A stretch of 64,000 nt of DNA from Thermodesulfovibrionia bacterium (GTDB lineage Bacteria; Nitrospirota; Thermodesulfovibrionia; UBA6902). Shown one piece after another: positions 7,151-19,056 of the stretch (position 1 is its first letter; every line of letters begins with the position of its first letter). The notes under the pieces were generated by a model that was given only the letters and a program-made list of their open reading frames with translations, did not search any database and was not told where the DNA came from. Position numbers and translations under genes: made by a program. The DNA lies in NCBI GenBank assembly GCA_020053105.1, contig JAGVNU010000070.1, forward strand, positions 1 to 64,000. The letters run 5' to 3'.

Positions 7151-7729
7151 TCAAGACTTCTTTCTCCAATTGCGCATCTCTGCGCGGGTCCGATATAGCC
7201 TTTCCGTGAACCCACCCTCTTTCAAGAAATCTTTTTCCAGTGTTCTCAATTGCTGATCAAGCAGGTAGTTTGTCTGGTGGATCAGGCAGATCATGGTGTT
7301 TACAGCAGTTTCTGGCGAGCTTTGCTCGATATAGGTCTTATAAGTCCTATAGGACCTATTTTTGCTGTATACCAGCTTGCGCACAGCACGCGCCTGAGGG
7401 TGGTCCTTTGTCCAGAGAGCCAGCCCTTTCTGTCGCAGATAATCTTGATCATCAAGAAGCAGTTCTTCGAGGCTCGCCCGTGCCACTCCAATGAGCTTCA
7501 GTTCGGTCTTTTTAGAAGTGCCCGACGCCATACTGCCCTCAGCGATGTTCTGCTTGCCGCTTCGCGCCGCCTGCGCCATCTGATCATGAGTACGTGAGCG
7601 GCGGTCTATAAACCTGTCACAGAATACTATCGTAGCATCATAAACAATCTCTGACATCCTGTAAGACTGCAACTCGCGATACCCGCCGTGCGGCGGAATG
7701 AGCTGCGGGAAATTTTTTGAGTCAGTCAT
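7151..7729 (-). CDS. Four-helix-bundle suffix-domain protein (copy 1)
   Basis: The 192-residue protein has the [17 protein letters not shown] opening, the [31 protein letters not shown] core and the [20 protein letters not shown] helix typical of the four-helix-bundle family related to 23S rRNA intervening-sequence proteins. Function is unknown for the family; it is common in metagenomic genomes and often lies beside restriction-modification genes. A close paralogue lies inside the type I restriction locus at 51693-52286. Between the third and fourth helices is a low-complexity segment (NRSYRTYKTY) encoded by short DNA repeats. It stands alone downstream of argG. Confidence 0.8.
   Translation of the reverse strand: MTDSKNFPQLIPPHGGYRELQSYRMSEIVYDATIVFCDRFIDRRSRTHDQMAQAARSGKQNIAEGSMASGTSKKTELKLIGVARASLEELLLDDQDYLRQKGLALWTKDHPQARAVRKLVYSKNRSYRTYKTYIEQSSPETAVNTMICLIHQTNYLLDQQLRTLEKDFLKEGGFTERLYRTRAEMRNWRKKS
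7328..7362 (-). repeat. Short tandem repeat inside four-helix-bundle gene copy 1
   Basis: Units of about nine bases (CCTATAGGA, CTTATAAGA and CCTATAT on the coding strand) encode the RSYRTYKTY segment. The repeat keeps the reading frame and occupies the same protein position as a different repeat in the paralogue at 51.9 kb. Confidence 0.55.
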
Positions 7730-7953: not shown

Positions 7954-8307
7954 ATGGATTTAGAGAACATACTAAAATCGCAAAATCCAGTCCTGTTCTC
8001 TTGCCTGCAAGATATAAAAAAGTTCTGTTCAGAAGAATGGGATGATAAACTGTTGCCATGGTTTACAAATCATGACTGTGGCAGAAAAGTTAGAGGAGAA
8101 TTGCTGACTGCTCTCTTGATGATAGCTGATGAACTTGACCTTCAGTGCAAGCGCATCGATTTCTCAGATACTGCGAAGTTTGATCTCTCTTCATACTCAC
8201 AGGTCCACTGGTTCAAACATCATTACGTAGATTACGTCGATGTAGAAAAGGCTGCTGTTAATGTCACTCTGAAGTTCCTGAAAATGCAGATGAATATAGC
8301 AAACTGA
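7954..8307 (+). pseudogene. C-terminal remnant of an HD-type protein
   Basis: The 117-residue ORF carries TALLMIADELDLQCKRIDFS and a following HWFKHHYVDYVDVEKAAVNVTLKFL. These resemble the distal half of HD-CE-type or HD-associated domains (the ADxLD helix, then WFKH). The N-terminal HD metal-binding part is absent, and several in-frame stops follow before a TPR stretch resumes in the same frame. The region upstream (7730-7953) shows nothing recognisable. It is most likely a truncated gene, although a short expressed protein from the ATG at 7954 cannot be excluded. Confidence 0.45.
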
Positions 8308-8346
8308 TATGTGAGCTAATTAAGACAAAACTCGATAAGCAGATAG

Positions 8347-8883
8347 GAAGATGCTTTAAATAATCATAAGAAGAGCTTAAGTATTTGTCGAGAAATTGGG
8401 GACAAAGAAAGAATTGCTATATCACTTAATAATCTCGGAGTTGTGCTGATAGCAAAAGGTGACTTGGAAGGTGCTTTAAGCAATTTCAGAAAGAGCTTTA
8501 GTGTTTCTGCAGAGATAGGAGACAAGAGATGTATTGCTGCGGGGTATCATAATCTTGGCACATATTTTGAGAGAATAAGGGATTATAACACATCGCTAAA
8601 AAATCTCTTTTTATCTCTTGCGCTTCAAAATCAGGTCGGTATAAAAGAACCGGAGACGATAGAATATATACTCAAGTTTCGAAAATCTATCGGATTAAAT
8701 CTATTCAAAGATCTTACTAAGTACGCCTTCGATAACCTTCCCGAAGACTTAAAACCGTTTATCGCTTTGGATGATTTTATCAAAGAAGAAACTGTTCATC
8801 ATGAAACCACCCCCCCGGTCGCAACGCTCCCTGCACATGCGGCAGCGGGAAGAAATACAAGAAGTGCTGTGGGAAGTAATTAA
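8347..8883 (+). pseudogene. Truncated TPR-repeat gene remnant
   Basis: From a stop at 8344-8346 the frame is open to 8883. It encodes tetratricopeptide repeats with strong internal similarity (KSLSICREIGDKERIAISLN; KSFSVSAEIGDKRCIAAGYH). The repeat unit is cut at its 5' side, where no sensible start or signal exists before the in-frame stop, so an N-terminal part is missing. It shares frame with the HD remnant upstream, and the two may be pieces of one former gene. The AT-rich composition differs from the housekeeping genes. An internal ATG-like start would give at best a 146-residue protein. Confidence 0.5.
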
Positions 8884-11640: not shown

Positions 11641-12174
11641 GTGCTTGGTCCTCACATGAAAACATTAAGGAAACTTAAAGGCTTAAGGCCCACAACAGCG
11701 AAAGTCAGGGAGGCCCTGTTTGACATATTGCGGGTCAGGATGGAGAATGCCCGGTTTCTCGACTTATACGCGGGAACAGGCGCAGTGGGAATTAACGCGT
11801 TGAATGAAGGGGCTGCTGAGGTTGTCTTCGTTGAGGATAATAAAGGGCATATAAGAAAAATACATGAGCTTCTGGAAAAACACCATATCAGTGAGAGGGC
11901 CGATATTACAAACCAGAAAGCCATAGCATTTATTAACCGGGCGGATCTGCAGGATTTGACCTTTGATATAATATTTCTGGACCCGCCGTATCACACAGAT
12001 GAAATAATAAATGCGCTCGCTGCAATCGGCAGGTCCTCCATAATAAAGCAGAACGGGATCGTTATTGCAGAGCATTTTACGAAAAAAATATTACCTGACA
12101 GATTCGACAGGCTGTATAAGGTAAAAACCTATACTTACGGTGATTCGGTACTCAGTCTTTTTGAGGCTGAATGA
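11641..12174 (+). CDS. rsmD: 16S rRNA (guanine966-N2)-methyltransferase
   Basis: The enzyme methylates G966 of 16S rRNA using S-adenosylmethionine. Visible motifs are RPTTAKVREALFDIL, the SAM-binding FLDLYAGTGAVGINAL and the catalytic IIFLDPPYHTDEI. The frame opens with GTG at 11641; an ATG at 11656 is an alternative start. The usual RVIAGxxKGRxL opening is shortened, but the methyltransferase core is complete (177 residues). The gene precedes coaD, the standard rsmD-coaD pairing. Confidence 0.93.
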   Translation: MLGPHMKTLRKLKGLRPTTAKVREALFDILRVRMENARFLDLYAGTGAVGINALNEGAAEVVFVEDNKGHIRKIHELLEKHHISERADITNQKAIAFINRADLQDLTFDIIFLDPPYHTDEIINALAAIGRSSIIKQNGIVIAEHFTKKILPDRFDRLYKVKTYTYGDSVLSLFEAE

Positions 12175-12254
12175 TTTTAATAAACCAGTGATATAATGAC
12201 TTGGACAATTGACATCCGGGTCCTTGCTAAAAAAGAAAGGGGATAATCAGCCAA

Positions 12255-12761
12255 ATGAAACGCTCACAAAATACAATTGCAATATATCCCGGCACCTTTG
12301 ATCCTGTTACCAACGGTCACATAGATCTGGTCACCAGGACACTTAAGATATTTGATGAAGTTATAATCGCCGTTGCGCCGAGTCAGAAGAAGCAGCCTTT
12401 ATTTACAGTTGAGGAAAGGATAGCGCTGATCAGGAAGTCTATAAGATATATAAAAGGGGCCAGGGCGGACGCCTTCAACAGTCTGCTGGTTGATTACGCG
12501 GCGGGCATGAAGAGTGTGGCAATCATCAGGGGGCTAAGGGCCATTTCGGATTTTGAATATGAACTCCAGATGGCCCTTATGAACAGGCGTATTAACTTGA
12601 ATATTGAAGCTGTCTTTTTGATGCCAAGTGAAGAGTATACATTCCTTTCGTCGACCCTCGTAAAAGAGGTCGCTTCATTCGGGGGCTCTGTAAAGGGGCT
12701 TGTGCCGGAAGCGGTTGAAACGGCGCTTAAAGAAAAATTTATAATTCATAATCCAAAATGA
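12255..12761 (+). CDS. coaD: Phosphopantetheine adenylyltransferase
   Basis: The 168-residue enzyme transfers AMP to 4'-phosphopantetheine, the fourth step of coenzyme A synthesis. The nucleotidyltransferase signature is at residues 10-22 (YPGTFDPVTNGHI, containing the T/HxGH element). Conserved RGLRAISDFEYELQMA and STLVKEVASFGGSV segments follow. Length is normal. It lies 80 bases after rsmD, and its stop overlaps the start of a DUF4258 gene (ATGA). Confidence 0.97.
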   Translation: MKRSQNTIAIYPGTFDPVTNGHIDLVTRTLKIFDEVIIAVAPSQKKQPLFTVEERIALIRKSIRYIKGARADAFNSLLVDYAAGMKSVAIIRGLRAISDFEYELQMALMNRRINLNIEAVFLMPSEEYTFLSSTLVKEVASFGGSVKGLVPEAVETALKEKFIIHNPK

Positions 12762-13066
12762 AAACAATTGAGCAAATCTGCCGGCAATTAATATCCGGAC
12801 AGTTTGAATTTTCCCGCCATGCTTTCAAACGCTCAATCGAGCGGAATATCAGCGAACTGGAAATACGTGAAATCGGGAATCATGTTAAAATTATTGAAGA
12901 GTATCCTGATGACAAATATTCGCCGAGCTGCTTACTATTGGGATTTACTCAAAACAGACGTCCGTTGCACCTTCAGATATCAGTTGAAGATTCTGAATAT
13001 CTGAAGATAATTACTATTTATGAACCGGACGAGACGAAATGGATCAATTACGAAAAAAGGAGATAA
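12758..13066 (+). CDS. DUF4258 protein, putative toxin of a toxin-antitoxin pair
   Basis: The 102-residue protein shows the DUF4258 pattern: FSRHAFKRSIERNIS near the start, then IIEEYPDDKYSPSCLLLGF, and a closing IITIYEPDETKW. The family has a RelE/BrnT-like fold and usually pairs with a small zinc-finger protein. It overlaps the coaD stop codon and is followed four bases later by a YgiT-type finger gene. Toxicity is inferred from family context. Confidence 0.8.
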   Translation: MKTIEQICRQLISGQFEFSRHAFKRSIERNISELEIREIGNHVKIIEEYPDDKYSPSCLLLGFTQNRRPLHLQISVEDSEYLKIITIYEPDETKWINYEKRR

Positions 13067-13070
13067 TATA

Positions 13071-13301
13071 ATGTTTCACTGTCATGTATGCGGCTCTACA
13101 GAAGCAAAAGAAGGGTCTGTAAACGAGGTCTTCCAGATTGACGGCAAACCTGTCCTCGTTGAACATATCCCTGCAACAATCTGCTCAAGATGCAGCGAGC
13201 CTGTTTTCAGCCGGGATACGACCGAAAAGATTCGTCGTATGGTACACGGGGAAGCAAAACCCGAAAAGACCATCAGTATGGACGTCTTTGCGTTTGTATA
13301 A
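13071..13301 (+). CDS. YgiT-type zinc-finger protein, putative antitoxin
   Basis: The start at 13071 is chosen because an AAGGAGAT site precedes it. The 76-residue product begins MFHCHVCGSTEAKEG and has a second pair of cysteines (TICSRCSEPVFS), forming the four-Cys finger of MqsA/YgiT-type antitoxins. The C-terminal helix-turn-helix of full MqsA is absent. It follows the DUF4258 gene directly, the usual toxin-first order of this family. Confidence 0.85.
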   Translation: MFHCHVCGSTEAKEGSVNEVFQIDGKPVLVEHIPATICSRCSEPVFSRDTTEKIRRMVHGEAKPEKTISMDVFAFV

Positions 13302-13338
13302 CCTGCCTTTACCGGAACAGTGTGTGAGACAGGTAATC

Positions 13339-13349
13339 AACTACGTCAG
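13339..13349. repeat. Left 11-bp direct repeat flanking the TPR-PIN island
   Basis: AACTACGTCAG occurs here and again at 17428-17438, just outside each end of the AT-rich 1,279-aa gene. The spacing defines an island of about 4.1 kb. An 11-bp exact match this close to both ends is unlikely by chance but not decisive. Confidence 0.4.
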
Positions 13350-13526
13350 ATAAGTCGTTTTATGTGTCTCAAAAGTCCGTTTTTCTACACCATTCCTTCC
13401 GATTTTCCACGCTTCCATACATTGGATCTTCGGCACGTCCACACATAGGCACTCTTTCCCCTTGCCGTTTATTCTTCATTTGATTAGAATTAAGCGGTTG
13501 GATTGTCGAAGCGGATAGAATCAATT

Positions 13527-16500
13527 ATGGGGATAGAAGAAATAATACTTAATATTTTGCTTTCGCTATTAACAAATGGGATCGCTACGCTTGCAGATAG
13601 ATATGATGATGAAAAAAGGAAAGAGTTTGATGAACTTAAGAAGCATTTAAAAGAGGGCAATATTCTTCAAGCGATTACAGTTAAATCACTGAAAGAAATT
13701 AAGGTTGAATCAAAAGAAGTTGATCAACTTAAGATATTAGTAAATGGCGATGTTTTCAATAAAAAGCTTGCTAATATAATATCAAGCCCGTCCCCTGAAA
13801 ATGAAACTATCAAATTTATCGTTACAGAAGTCAAAAAGTACTGTAATTTTTCAGAAGATAAAACGCTAACAATAGAACCGCATATTGCTCACTTTGTAAC
13901 GGAGATTTATAAAGGAATTCTACATAATCCCATCTTAGCACCTTTTTTAATCATAAAACGAATTGACGAATCAATAGAAATTTCACAACAAGAACATAAA
14001 GATCAAAAAGAATTACTGGAAAAGATTTACCAAAAAGTTGATCAAGTAAAAGCAGACTTAAATGAACATAATAATACACGTCGTGATATTACATTTCAAC
14101 CAATTGATACTAGACAAATATTTCCTGACACAGCCCATATAGATAATCCGCAAATTGATTCACGAGTTGGGAGACTTTTACAAAATGAATTAGAAAAAAC
14201 CTTAGATAAGCTCAACAGTTTCTTTAAAACTCGGACTGATGAGATAAAACAAATACAAAAAGATAGAGACTTCAGGAAAGCGATCAAGCTTTATGAATCG
14301 CTACTTGCCGAAGCAGACGATAAAATTGATACAGAATCAATCTTAGGGATTTATGCAGATTGCGCATTGTGTTCCATAAACATCGACGATTTTGAAGCTG
14401 CTAACGAATGGCTTAATAAGGCAGAGGGAATCTCCACAACTGATAAAAGGGTATTAGCAATAAGAGGGCTATTTCATTATGAGTCAGGCGATAACAATAA
14501 AAGCAGGGGATATTCGGAAGCATCTTTGTCTGCAGATAAGTTTTACCATCTGGCACTGATACTATTGACAGGCCTTGAATTAGAATCTGGCATAGAAGGA
14601 AAAACTTTACTTAATAAATATTTTTTAGATGATCAAGACAATCTAAAAAAAGGTTTCAAAGAAGAACATCTCGCAGTCATTTATCGGACTATCGGACAAT
14701 GCTATTTAAGAGATAATTTATTTGATAATGCAATCACTTTTTTTCAAGAATCGTTATCTCAGGATGCCTTTGATGATGCAACTCTCTCACTAATAGGATT
14801 TGCTTATCTTAAAAAGGTAATCGGGGTGGATACTACCACTGTTCACTTCTACGAAAAGTTAGATGATAAAGAAGAACACTTAATAAAATCTGCAATTAGC
14901 TATTTCAATAGATCATTAGAAGTTGCCGCACGCTATCAGAACATAAAACACCACATCTCAACCCGTGCCAATCTCTCTGTATGCTATATGCTCTTAGGGC
15001 AATATGATAACGCATATGATATTGCTGAAATCTCGAACATAGCCCAGAGCGAGCATGAGGAGTTGATTAAGAGCAAAGCTGCGGCGGCTTATTATAAGGG
15101 CTCTTTTACAGAAGCAGTTGAGTTACTTTCAAAAGTAAAAGATTTTACATGCCAAGACATTATTAATGAAGTTATATCTCTTTTACATTCAAATAAAGAT
15201 GGCAAAGAGAAAGAAGCTTTAGATTTATTAAATACTTTCTTAGGAAAATCGACTATCAGTACTGAGGACATTGCACAAATAAATTGTCTAAAGCTTGAAA
15301 TATTACTGTATTTAAAAGATAAGGACGGCGCATTAAAAGTATTACGTGACTTGGATGCTTCCCGCCTTCCCATCTGGCAAAAAGAGGCCGCAACAGGAGA
15401 TCATTACGACGCATTTTCAGATCATGAAAAAGCCGATATTCATTATCAGAATGCATTGAGTCAAAATGACATAATCGTTCCAGCGAAAATATATATTGCT
15501 TATTATTATTTCCAAAGAAATGAATATGAACTTTGTTACAACATTTGTTCTTCTATCCCTCTAAACAAGATTAAGACCAATTTAGAGATTTTCCAGAGAC
15601 TTCTTTATATGGCAGTGATTTCTTCATTTAAACTATCGAAGCTTAAGGAATGCCGGGAATTTATAATTTTTGGACAACAGCAAAATGTTAAGGATGTTTA
15701 CTTAAATGAAGCGTCTGCATCTATATTCTTGCAGGACGATGATCTTGAAGATGCTCAAGATGAACTAAAAACTGTATTAGGAAAACGTAGTAAGGACAAA
15801 AATGTTGATGTCCTGATCGATCTCGGTTCCGTTTCACTGATGTTAGGCGATGTAAAAACATCTATAAGCTATTTTGAGCAAGCCGAGAAATTACCAGCAT
15901 TTTACAGTAATTCACAGAGTGTGATTAATTACGTAGTAGCACTTGTAATTATAGGCGATAGAATCGAGGCAAAGCGGATATTCCAAAAGTCTGTAGAATA
16001 TAAATTTGATAACAGAGATGATAGTATTCATAGGTTTGCTCCTGTTTTTTATTTAAGAGAAAACAAGTCCGATCTGTTAGCCAAATATGCTGTCGAGTTT
16101 AATAATAAACACGGTGATACCGAATGGTTATGGAAAAAGGACATAAAAAAATATGAAGAAGAACTGAAAAGTATATTCAGTGAATCAATAAGACGATCCC
16201 AAGAAATCCGGAACTTATACACTGATAAATCAATACCACTTGTATTTTTGCCACTGCTAACAGGGAAAAAAGAAATTATTCACCTGTGGCGATTTAATAG
16301 AGAATATGGGCTGCCATTAATTATAGAATCAGGTAATCCTAACGAGCTTTCTCAAGAGATATCATCCCTGACTAATAAGAAATCAGTTCTTCTTGACTAT
16401 ACGGCTTTACTTGTTCTGATGGAGATAGGCAAAGAATACTATTGGATACTCGATAAACTATTTGATGAAATACTTATATATAGGCCAATGTATTTGAACA

Positions 16501-17366
16501 TGTTGAACGAGTTGTTGATAGAAGAACATGCAGGATTAAGAGAAACAATTAACTACTTATCTGCAACCAAGAAAGTTAAATTCTTAAAACGGCTTACCTT
16601 GCCATCATCAGAGATTGAAGGTAAGAATTTAACTCATATAATTCCAGCTTTTTATATTGAGTTTTTCAATATTGCCCAAAAGACTGGACTTCCTTTAATA
16701 ATAGGTGAATCAAGGCTTAGAGGTTTTATAAATAATTTCGGTATCAAATCAAGCGGCATAAGGTCGTTACTGGAATATGCAAAAAATACAAAAATAATCA
16801 GCGAAGCAGAGATAAGCAGTGCAATAATAAATTTAATAAAAAAAGACTGTCAGTTCATTTCATTTAATCGTGAAACTTTAGATTATTTATTTAACAACTA
16901 TAAAGAAAAAGACTTTGAATTAATATTCGAGAAACTTAGCAACCAAGTATTTTTACCACATTCAGAACTGGAAACATTTTTCAACGTATACCTTGGTTTT
17001 ATTCTAAAATGTAAACAGTCAGGGATTGCCGGGACTAACCTTAACTACTTTATTGAAAAAACCATTAATGATGTAAAACGATTAACCGGTAACGCATTAG
17101 TCTTCAATAGTCTCCCATTCTGTAATAAAAATAATTTTTTAACTGACATGAATAAAATTAACCTTATTTGTTTAGGATATATTTATCAGCTTTTATTATT
17201 AATTGATTCATTGAAAATTACTGCTCATTTAAAGGACGGATTTATTGACATTGTGAGAAAGAATGCTAATTTAGCTTATTGGTATGAGAAAAAACATAAG
17301 AATATTCCAATTATTAAGTTTATTTTTGACTCTGCTAAATGTAGCATGTTGCAAAAAAAGATATGA
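13527..17366 (+). CDS. Large TPR protein with PIN-like C-terminal region (candidate defence gene)
   Basis: From the ATG at 13527 the product has 1,279 residues; a TTG at 13503 is an alternative start. The N-terminus is a hydrophobic helix (IEEIILNILLSLLTNGIATL) and a charged region ending in a coiled coil (about residues 155-190, SQQEHKDQKELLEKIYQKVD). Residues ~230-900 are degenerate tetratricopeptide repeats. The last ~330 residues look PIN-like: KKSVLLDYTALLVLMEIG near 955 gives a first acidic strand, NELLIEEHAG follows, and LPLIIGESRLRGF near 1,055 sits where PIN folds place their later acidic residues. The gene is much more AT-rich than its neighbours, stands alone, and is bracketed by 11-bp direct repeats. 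A sensor-plus-nuclease immunity protein is a hypothesis; the PIN call needs structure prediction. Confidence 0.6.
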   Translation: MGIEEIILNILLSLLTNGIATLADRYDDEKRKEFDELKKHLKEGNILQAITVKSLKEIKVESKEVDQLKILVNGDVFNKKLANIISSPSPENETIKFIVTEVKKYCNFSEDKTLTIEPHIAHFVTEIYKGILHNPILAPFLIIKRIDESIEISQQEHKDQKELLEKIYQKVDQVKADLNEHNNTRRDITFQPIDTRQIFPDTAHIDNPQIDSRVGRLLQNELEKTLDKLNSFFKTRTDEIKQIQKDRDFRKAIKLYESLLAEADDKIDTESILGIYADCALCSINIDDFEAANEWLNKAEGISTTDKRVLAIRGLFHYESGDNNKSRGYSEASLSADKFYHLALILLTGLELESGIEGKTLLNKYFLDDQDNLKKGFKEEHLAVIYRTIGQCYLRDNLFDNAITFFQESLSQDAFDDATLSLIGFAYLKKVIGVDTTTVHFYEKLDDKEEHLIKSAISYFNRSLEVAARYQNIKHHISTRANLSVCYMLLGQYDNAYDIAEISNIAQSEHEELIKSKAAAAYYKGSFTEAVELLSKVKDFTCQDIINEVISLLHSNKDGKEKEALDLLNTFLGKSTISTEDIAQINCLKLEILLYLKDKDGALKVLRDLDASRLPIWQKEAATGDHYDAFSDHEKADIHYQNALSQNDIIVPAKIYIAYYYFQRNEYELCYNICSSIPLNKIKTNLEIFQRLLYMAVISSFKLSKLKECREFIIFGQQQNVKDVYLNEASASIFLQDDDLEDAQDELKTVLGKRSKDKNVDVLIDLGSVSLMLGDVKTSISYFEQAEKLPAFYSNSQSVINYVVALVIIGDRIEAKRIFQKSVEYKFDNRDDSIHRFAPVFYLRENKSDLLAKYAVEFNNKHGDTEWLWKKDIKKYEEELKSIFSESIRRSQEIRNLYTDKSIPLVFLPLLTGKKEIIHLWRFNREYGLPLIIESGNPNELSQEISSLTNKKSVLLDYTALLVLMEIGKEYYWILDKLFDEILIYRPMYLNMLNELLIEEHAGLRETINYLSATKKVKFLKRLTLPSSEIEGKNLTHIIPAFYIEFFNIAQKTGLPLIIGESRLRGFINNFGIKSSGIRSLLEYAKNTKIISEAEISSAIINLIKKDCQFISFNRETLDYLFNNYKEKDFELIFEKLSNQVFLPHSELETFFNVYLGFILKCKQSGIAGTNLNYFIEKTINDVKRLTGNALVFNSLPFCNKNNFLTDMNKINLICLGYIYQLLLLIDSLKITAHLKDGFIDIVRKNANLAYWYEKKHKNIPIIKFIFDSAKCSMLQKKI

Positions 17367-17427
17367 TGTCATATCGCTGTGATTACAAATAGACAAGAGA
17401 AGGATTGATATTGTGAGCATTTTAAAT

Positions 17428-17438
17428 AACTACGTCAG
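17428..17438. repeat. Right 11-bp direct repeat flanking the TPR-PIN island
   Basis: Second copy of AACTACGTCAG, 62 bases after the stop of the large TPR gene. See the left copy at 13339. It is compatible with a target-site or attachment-site duplication. Confidence 0.4.
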
Positions 17439-17548
17439 TCTATTATTCAAAGGCTGACCGTCTTATCTATGCTTTCTACGAAAGATAATCAGGATTACCT
17501 GATCAAATAATCAATAAAACACATTAACAATGACTATCGGCTTTTTAC

Positions 17549-18412
17549 ATGGGCCAAATAAAAATCATCACCGCAATTCTCATCTGGAGCTCACTGGGTA
17601 TTCTAATACGTAAAATAGACCTGCCGAACTATTGCATAATTTTTTATACGTCTGCCATTGCCGGGGCTTTTCAATTCATATTGCTGACATCTTCCGGACT
17701 GATGAGAAAAGAAAAGTATTCCATTGGGGGACGCAGTGGCGCCCTCTTGCTTGCTCTCCTGCCGGTGTGCTTTATAGCTAATTCAATGCTGTTTTATTTT
17801 GCCTTCAGGAATACGACTATAGGGAATGCCGTACTCACGCATTATACCGCCCCCGTGTTTGTAGCGCTCCTGGCGCCTCTCCTGCTGAAAGAGAAAATCA
17901 GCAAGACAACCTGGACCGCAATAACACTGTCGTCAGCAGGCCTGTGGCTGGTACTCGGGGGTAAGGCCTCCGGACTGGAAACGGTCCACGCAGGCAATGA
18001 ACATCTCGGGATTATCGCCGGGGCGCTGTCAGGGCTTGCATACGCGTTTCTGATTATCATTATCAGAAGGATCGCGGCCCTTTACTCTTCCCTTTTCATC
18101 ACATTCATACAAAACGGTATTGTGGCCCTTGTGCTGCTGCCCTTTGTCTTCAGCATCCCTGTTTCCATGGAGACACTGTTATACCTTATTACGATGGGTA
18201 TCGTACACTCCACTATCGCCCCCCTTCTGTATGTGCAGGGCTTCAGGAGCGTAAAGGCAAACGAGGCTGCAGTACTGGGATACTTCGAGCCGGTTGCCGC
18301 AATCATTCTGGCATTTATCGTGTTACATGAAGTTCCCGGCATAACGGCATTGTTCGGTGGGGCGCTGATCCTTTTTTCGGGGTATCTGATTATAAAGGCC
18401 CGGACAGCATAG
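17549..18412 (+). CDS. EamA/DMT-family membrane transporter
   Basis: The 287-residue protein is very hydrophobic, with ten predicted membrane spans arranged as two EamA repeats. The first contains YTSAIAGAFQFI and GNAVLTHYTAPVFVALLAPLLLKE; the second contains TIAPLLYVQGFRSVKANEAAVLGYFEPVAAIILAF. The TAPV/LLKE and EP-A signatures are characteristic of drug/metabolite transporters that export small metabolites or amino acids. The substrate cannot be predicted. It is a single-gene unit. Confidence 0.9.
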   Translation: MGQIKIITAILIWSSLGILIRKIDLPNYCIIFYTSAIAGAFQFILLTSSGLMRKEKYSIGGRSGALLLALLPVCFIANSMLFYFAFRNTTIGNAVLTHYTAPVFVALLAPLLLKEKISKTTWTAITLSSAGLWLVLGGKASGLETVHAGNEHLGIIAGALSGLAYAFLIIIIRRIAALYSSLFITFIQNGIVALVLLPFVFSIPVSMETLLYLITMGIVHSTIAPLLYVQGFRSVKANEAAVLGYFEPVAAIILAFIVLHEVPGITALFGGALILFSGYLIIKARTA

Positions 18413-18505
18413 ACGTTATATTCGTTCCGGAGTTGCGCCTTGATGACATTTAAAATGATGTACAATAGTAAATTCATATAAATCTCTGAGCGCTGTTTTA
18501 CATGT

Positions 18506-18952
18506 ATGAAACTGGACAGTCACATAATAGAACAGATATATAAACACGCACTGGATGAATATCCGTTTGAGTGCTGCGGCATAATAACAGGCAGCAGGGA
18601 CAGGCAGACGGTCCATTTGTGCAGGAACGTTCAAAACAGCCTCCACAAGGAAGACCCGTCCAGATATCCCCGGGACGCCCGTATCGCCTATTTGATAGAC
18701 CGAAGCGAGTTTGACGGGATAGTGTCAGCTGCAAAGGAAAAAGGCGGGAATGTCCTTGCCGTCTATCATTCCCATCCTGAGCACGGGGCCTATTTTTCAG
18801 AAGAAGACCATGCCGCTCAAACCGTCTTTGGAGAGCCGGAATTCCCGGAGGCAGTACATGTGGTAGTGTCTGTAGTGAACAGGACAATCCGCGATATGAA
18901 GTGCTTTAAATGGGACGGAAGTATTAAGGCCTTCAGGGAAGTAGATTGTTAA
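18506..18952 (+). CDS. M67 (JAMM/MPN+) family metallopeptidase
   Basis: The 148-residue protein carries a complete JAMM zinc motif: a Glu in FECCGIITG near residue 20, and HSHPEHGAYFSEEDH near residue 88 (H-x-H-x10-D). Bacterial members are related to Mec+ desampylase-like peptidases that trim ubiquitin-like sulfur carriers such as ThiS/MoaD-type proteins. No sulfur-carrier gene is adjacent here, so the substrate is open. Length is normal for a stand-alone domain. Confidence 0.9.
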   Translation: MKLDSHIIEQIYKHALDEYPFECCGIITGSRDRQTVHLCRNVQNSLHKEDPSRYPRDARIAYLIDRSEFDGIVSAAKEKGGNVLAVYHSHPEHGAYFSEEDHAAQTVFGEPEFPEAVHVVVSVVNRTIRDMKCFKWDGSIKAFREVDC

Positions 18953-19056
18953 ACAATATTTATTTTTATTGCCTCTATGTCCTTAATAGACGGAAAAACC
19001 ATGATACAATTTAGACAAGACCGGCATATTTTAAATTTATTGCTTAAAGGGGGATA

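Follow-up and report, generated by a model that had tools for sequence, protein, structure and literature searches.

What kind of protein is encoded by the giant AT-rich gene that lies between coaD and an EamA transporter gene in a Thermodesulfovibrionia bacterium, how did it get there and what might it do? The stretch concerned spans positions 13339-17438 of the window, i.e. the 64,000 nucleotides of contig JAGVNU010000070.1 that were analysed (assembly GCA_020053105.1, 83% complete), and it had been singled out in an earlier note, made from sequence alone, as a lone anti-phage candidate between short direct repeats. The answer that we favour, with a probability of roughly 0.6, is that it encodes a horizontally mobile conflict protein of the single-gene type, most likely directed against phages, from a divergent branch of the TPR-GreA/B-C-PIN proteins that has lost the GreA/B-C domain. 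The gene and its parts are as follows.

13527-17366, + strand: giant TPR-PIN gene, 1,279 amino acids
13527-14201, + strand: residues 1-225, N-terminal module without recognisable domain
14202-16046, + strand: residues 226-840, TPR array
16047-16211, + strand: residues 841-895, most conserved segment, located where the TPR-GreA/B-C-PIN family has GreA/B-C
16212-16376, + strand: residues 896-950, pre-PIN helical segment in common with the family (Y898, P904, L905, G936)
16377-16901, + strand: residues 951-1125, PIN domain (profile matches and predicted fold)
16902-17363, + strand: residues 1126-1279, C-terminal region, partly common to the family

A relative of the TPR-GreA/B-C-PIN proteins

The single long open reading frame (13503-17366) is intact, and its likely start is the ATG at 13527 as the first Met of both orthologues aligns with it, which yields the 1,279-residue product originally described. 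These orthologues are found in G017, a genome from another genus of the same taxonomic family (Nitrospirae metagenome-assembled genome record JACRLN010000051; 81% amino acid identity), and in G053, from another family (52%). The TPR array is significant as well, TPR models matching residues ~250-850 (Pfam TPR_12, E 7.5e-12). No Pfam, NCBIfam or PADLOC model could be assigned directly to the C-terminus, and a sequence search of the PDB with C-terminal and N-terminal profiles returned nothing credible.

An idea of the relationships of the protein came from a weak match in the G053 orthologue (12.5 bits, E 0.18) to Pfam PF20698, the PIN model of the TPR-GreA/B-C-PIN conflict system (Kaur, Iyer, Burroughs and Aravind, eLife 2021, PMC8195603). 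This match is below the curated cut-off of 27.8 bits, and the window protein has no match to PF20698. Seventeen TPR-GreA/B-C-PIN proteins, three from the same phylum and 14 from plasmids, served as a comparison set, and all 17 match PF20698 with E values of 0.1 or lower. When aligned with these proteins by hhalign, the three orthologues scored 99.3% (E 2.7e-20) and were collinear with them from residue 232 to residue 1165. Since TPRs alone can inflate such a score, the C-terminus was compared separately, which gave 97.7% (E 2.2e-12, 264 columns) against no more than 0.3% for ten column-shuffled controls.

The resemblance extends to general organization. Both are giant single proteins of 1,000-1,500 residues that start with a variable module, continue with a long TPR array and a pre-PIN helical segment, and end with the PIN domain and the region after it, and both are mobile, mostly stand-alone and sporadic, with defence-type neighbours. 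There are, however, clear differences. The present protein scores below Pfam's cut-off, its PIN domain lacks an insertion of ~30 residues and one or two of four acids, and it has neither a recognised N-terminal effector nor a detectable GreA/B-C domain. While PF01272 is directly visible in six of the 17 family members, GreA/B-C could not be detected in the three orthologues, including the linker between TPR array and PIN domain (at most 0.4% with the family profile, as against 16-98% in six leave-one-out family controls). The corresponding place is taken by residues 841-895, which are 69% identical across the three orthologues. Residues 1-225 occupy the position of the variable effector, and residues 1-240 have no credible match in Pfam, the PDB or the N-termini of the family (including EAD10 and known effectors); this module may be an uncatalogued or highly diverged effector.

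Two other groups deserve comparison. Small PIN proteins of the VapC/DUF3368 type share the PIN fold and the order of its motifs, but they are single-domain proteins of ~150 residues, often toxins with an antitoxin, whereas the present PIN domain is joined to a TPR array and has an incomplete set of acids. DS-3 is, by its description, a one-protein phage defence that relies on a PIN domain, has no antitoxin and is proposed to be autoinhibited, although the N and C termini each contribute a part of its PIN domain (PMC13092281).

The PIN domain and its active site

An orthologue-only profile of the C-terminus matched stand-alone small PIN proteins in hhalign (93.7%, E 1.8e-7). An AlphaFold2 model with a pTM of 0.75 and ~90 pLDDT in the strand-helix core was obtained from a mixed alignment that contained five stand-alone PIN sequences (with the three orthologues only, pLDDT was 48 and the model was not used). 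PDB matches of this model are dominated by PIN proteins (3ix7, archaeal AF0591, Nmd4, SMG6 and VapC4), with SMG5 also among the closest folds. In a viral structure library there was no match at E 0.001, and a few PIN-like proteins appeared at E ~0.01. The predicted structure thus agrees with the PIN-like C-terminal region that had been proposed, but because the alignment behind it itself held PIN sequences, independent support for a PIN domain comes from the two hhalign comparisons of the C-terminus.

The acidic motifs on which that proposal was based are preserved only in part, with two positions conserved, one lost and one variable. The four aspartates of the family PIN domain correspond to D957, N991, E1045 and E1061. 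The second is N/N/R in the three orthologues (R in G053), the third E/E/G (G in G053), and the fourth is a glutamate instead of an aspartate. D957 and E1061 are invariant, as is E995, which is one helical turn after N991 and could take the place of the lost second acid. The nuclease site is partly eroded, and the nuclease activity of the predicted PIN domain is uncertain; the odds that it is an active RNase are about even.

Distribution, transfer and the flanking repeats

The TPR-PIN gene is found in three of the 231 genomes of the class, namely those of the window, G017 and G053, and the G017 record was the only match in genome-wide pattern scans. Carriage of close relatives by plasmids or phages was considered and rejected, tblastn against plasmid and phage collections having found none; there is no relative in viral_contigs either. 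Relatives preserve the gene order rsmD-coaD-EamA transporter-JAB protein, and five of them (G002, G003, G004, G007 and G014) have an empty site with ~25-220 bp between coaD and the transporter gene, so the gene is indeed absent from the same place, as had been anticipated. The window copy lies between coaD and the EamA gene, the G017 copy inside a secretin/pilus-type gene cluster and the G053 copy beside a DNA methylase gene.

Over 13479-17351, the gene of the window and that of G017 share 86% DNA identity, with a dN of 0.098 and a dS of 0.42, whereas dS is 1.63 for coaD of the same genome pair and has reached saturation for the EamA and JAB genes. The transfer between genera is therefore much more recent than their divergence. 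Together with the sporadic presence and the empty sites, this contrast in dS supports the horizontal acquisition suggested in the earlier note. With a dN/dS of ~0.23 for the whole gene (0.23 also in the PIN region), the protein is under purifying selection. The sharp contrast in composition also stands (32.7% GC for the gene, 46.2% for the window), but the change is not at the left repeat, as 13350-13526, the leader, still has 41% GC. Three features flank the gene.

13339-13349, + strand: left copy of AACTACGTCAG
13461-13496, + strand: dispersed promoter-like element (CTTGCCGTTTA..AATTAAGCG), 36 bp, with TTGCCG-17-TAGAAT inside (pattern search)
17428-17438, + strand: right copy of AACTACGTCAG

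The 36-bp element also precedes the G017 orthologue. It has one copy in its own genome and none in four genomes of the same genus, while there are four copies in G017, three in G028 and one in G030. The TPR-PIN gene thus seems to have arrived with its promoter region from a G017-like lineage. The match inside the element is sigma-70-like, and such matches are no commoner in the region than in shuffles. The element has an imperfect inverted repeat at its ends and is repeated in genomes of genus g14 (L102, L103, L104 and L106); one of the G017 copies precedes a HigB/HigA-type pair.

Has the gene then been transposed as part of a unit with an 11-bp target-site duplication at its ends, as the repeats had suggested? 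The exact direct repeat is present on both sides, at 13339 and 17428, and AACTACGTCAG occurs exactly twice in the window and three times in the whole assembly. However, such a repeat is not very improbable by chance, its probability in random sequence of the same composition being ~0.01 when the two non-coding flanks are considered and 0.08 with flanks of ~630 bp. None of the five empty sites has a copy of it, so that no empty allele with one repeat copy was found among them. Moreover, the DNA common to the window and G017 copies runs from 13461/13479 to about 17351-17406; its left end is over 100 bp inward of the left repeat and its right end falls short of the right one, which leaves both repeats outside. 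The empty sites also lack a toxin-antitoxin pair (see below) that is not enclosed by the repeats, and no transposase or recombinase adjoins the TPR-PIN gene. A target-site duplication is thus scarcely credible.

Putative function, alternatives and neighbouring genes

A role in biological conflict is likely, as suggested by the homology to TPR-GreA/B-C-PIN proteins and by the defence-type neighbours, and this role is probably phage defence. In TPR-GreA/B-C-PIN proteins, it has been proposed that GreA/B-C docks on the beta' coiled coil of RNA polymerase, that the transcript extruded by the enzyme is cleaved by the PIN domain and that the N-terminal effector provides suicide as a back-up (PMC8195603). 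If GreA/B-C is truly gone, docking on RNA polymerase by this means is impossible here, and the most economical reading is that of a TPR-controlled PIN protein acting on the RNA of another host or phage complex. The TPR solenoid would sense, or dock on, a host complex altered by infection and would otherwise keep the C-terminal PIN domain in check, possibly by autoinhibition. Upon triggering, the PIN domain would act on its target, putatively RNA, and stop phage production or the cell, while the N-terminal module might relay or execute the response, taking over from the enzymatic effectors that its cousins have. The protein would then be a new branch of a known kind of predicted immune protein, with an activity that is itself a prediction. 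As a natural relative in which GreA/B-C is missing and the PIN site is altered, it would make it possible to ask by comparison whether the TPR-GreA/B-C-PIN class needs RNA polymerase docking, and whether it needs RNA cleavage.

Several points weigh against this scenario. Only three TPR-PIN members are known, all in one class, and the set of four conserved acids expected of an active PIN nuclease is incomplete. PADLOC has no model for the protein, there is no proven defence system beside the gene in the window, and a search of the literature found no phage test of the TPR-GreA/B-C-PIN class, nor one of the present protein.

Nmd4 and SMG5 are degenerate PIN proteins. That both are among the closest folds would be in accord with a pseudo-nuclease that binds RNA or a protein partner without cutting, the N-terminal module being the executor, and so would the changes at the second, third and fourth acids. 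However, the invariance of D957, E995 and E1061, a dN/dS in the PIN region as low as elsewhere in the gene and the possible substitution by E995 speak against a loss of catalysis, and we regard this alternative as doubtful. Less likely still, the branch may have swapped the GreA/B-C domain, which docks on RNA polymerase, for a conserved segment of its own (the 55 residues 841-895). The same sensor-effector chassis would then be directed at a different host machine, and PIN would have become a sensor or a nuclease with a rebuilt active site. TPR proteins are common, and this one might be an ordinary regulatory protein of the cell, but the patchy distribution, the recent cross-genus transfer, the AT-rich composition, the different chromosomal sites and the homology to a conflict family speak against this and make it highly improbable. 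The favoured reading as an anti-phage conflict protein also has to be set against another possibility, which concerns the genes immediately upstream.

12758-13066, + strand: DUF4258 protein (toxin-like), first gene of the toxin-antitoxin pair (Pfam DUF4258, E 2.3e-21)
13071-13301, + strand: YgiT/MqsA-like zinc-ribbon antitoxin (MqsA_antitoxin, E 5.6e-5, below the curated cut-off; start set by the L044 homologue)

The statement that the gene sits alone did not survive, since this pair immediately precedes it in the same orientation. A type II toxin-antitoxin pair has this position and orientation in all three TPR-PIN copies (window 12758-13301, L042 8434-9032 and L043 3918-4513), which might indicate a three-gene unit in which the TPR-PIN protein takes part in a toxin-antitoxin-controlled response. 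However, the pairs differ in type (DUF4258/YgiT, MazEF and MazEF) and the two MazF proteins have only 35 of ~115 residues in common, and the pairs are therefore better read as favouring, like the TPR-PIN gene, one kind of site than as forming one system with it. The gaps between pair and TPR-PIN gene are 147-322 bp, the window gene has its own promoter-like element, and the DUF4258/YgiT pair occurs without a TPR-PIN gene in G001, where a DUF4258 homologue (83% amino acid identity) and its partner lie between guaB and guaA. A three-gene unit is thus improbable.

Defence-type neighbours are found in two of the three copies. A HipA-like kinase and a DUF3037 gene, which represent domain types that protect against phage in other proteins (PMC13092281), are downstream of the G017 copy, and the DNA methylase is downstream of the G053 copy. 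Members of the TPR-GreA/B-C-PIN family adjoin Shedu, CBASS-type and BREX genes. At L063 (671-8946) the family gene is preceded, in head-to-tail arrangement, by pglZ and brxL, which suggests a BREX-associated member, and at L062 (629-9418) a member with a Mrr-like N-terminus is near a caspase-like gene and SMC-like ATPases.

A few minor observations concern the surroundings of the gene. Downstream of it, 17480-17515 is antisense to 16316-16351 of the TPR-PIN coding sequence (28/36; score reached by 0 of 500 shuffles) and 17529-17546 to 15427-15444 (17/18; 2 of 500). These stretches (17480-17546) are possibly filler DNA from a rearrangement, or antisense RNA. An Rfam search of 12000-19000 gave no match. 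Further upstream, 7151-7729 weakly matches the 23S rRNA intervening-sequence (four-helix) protein family, outside any rRNA gene. Finally, an AT-rich patch at 7954-8883 holds fragments similar to HD-CE (E 5.9e-4) and TPR_12 (E 3e-4), and is possibly what remains of a decayed conflict gene.

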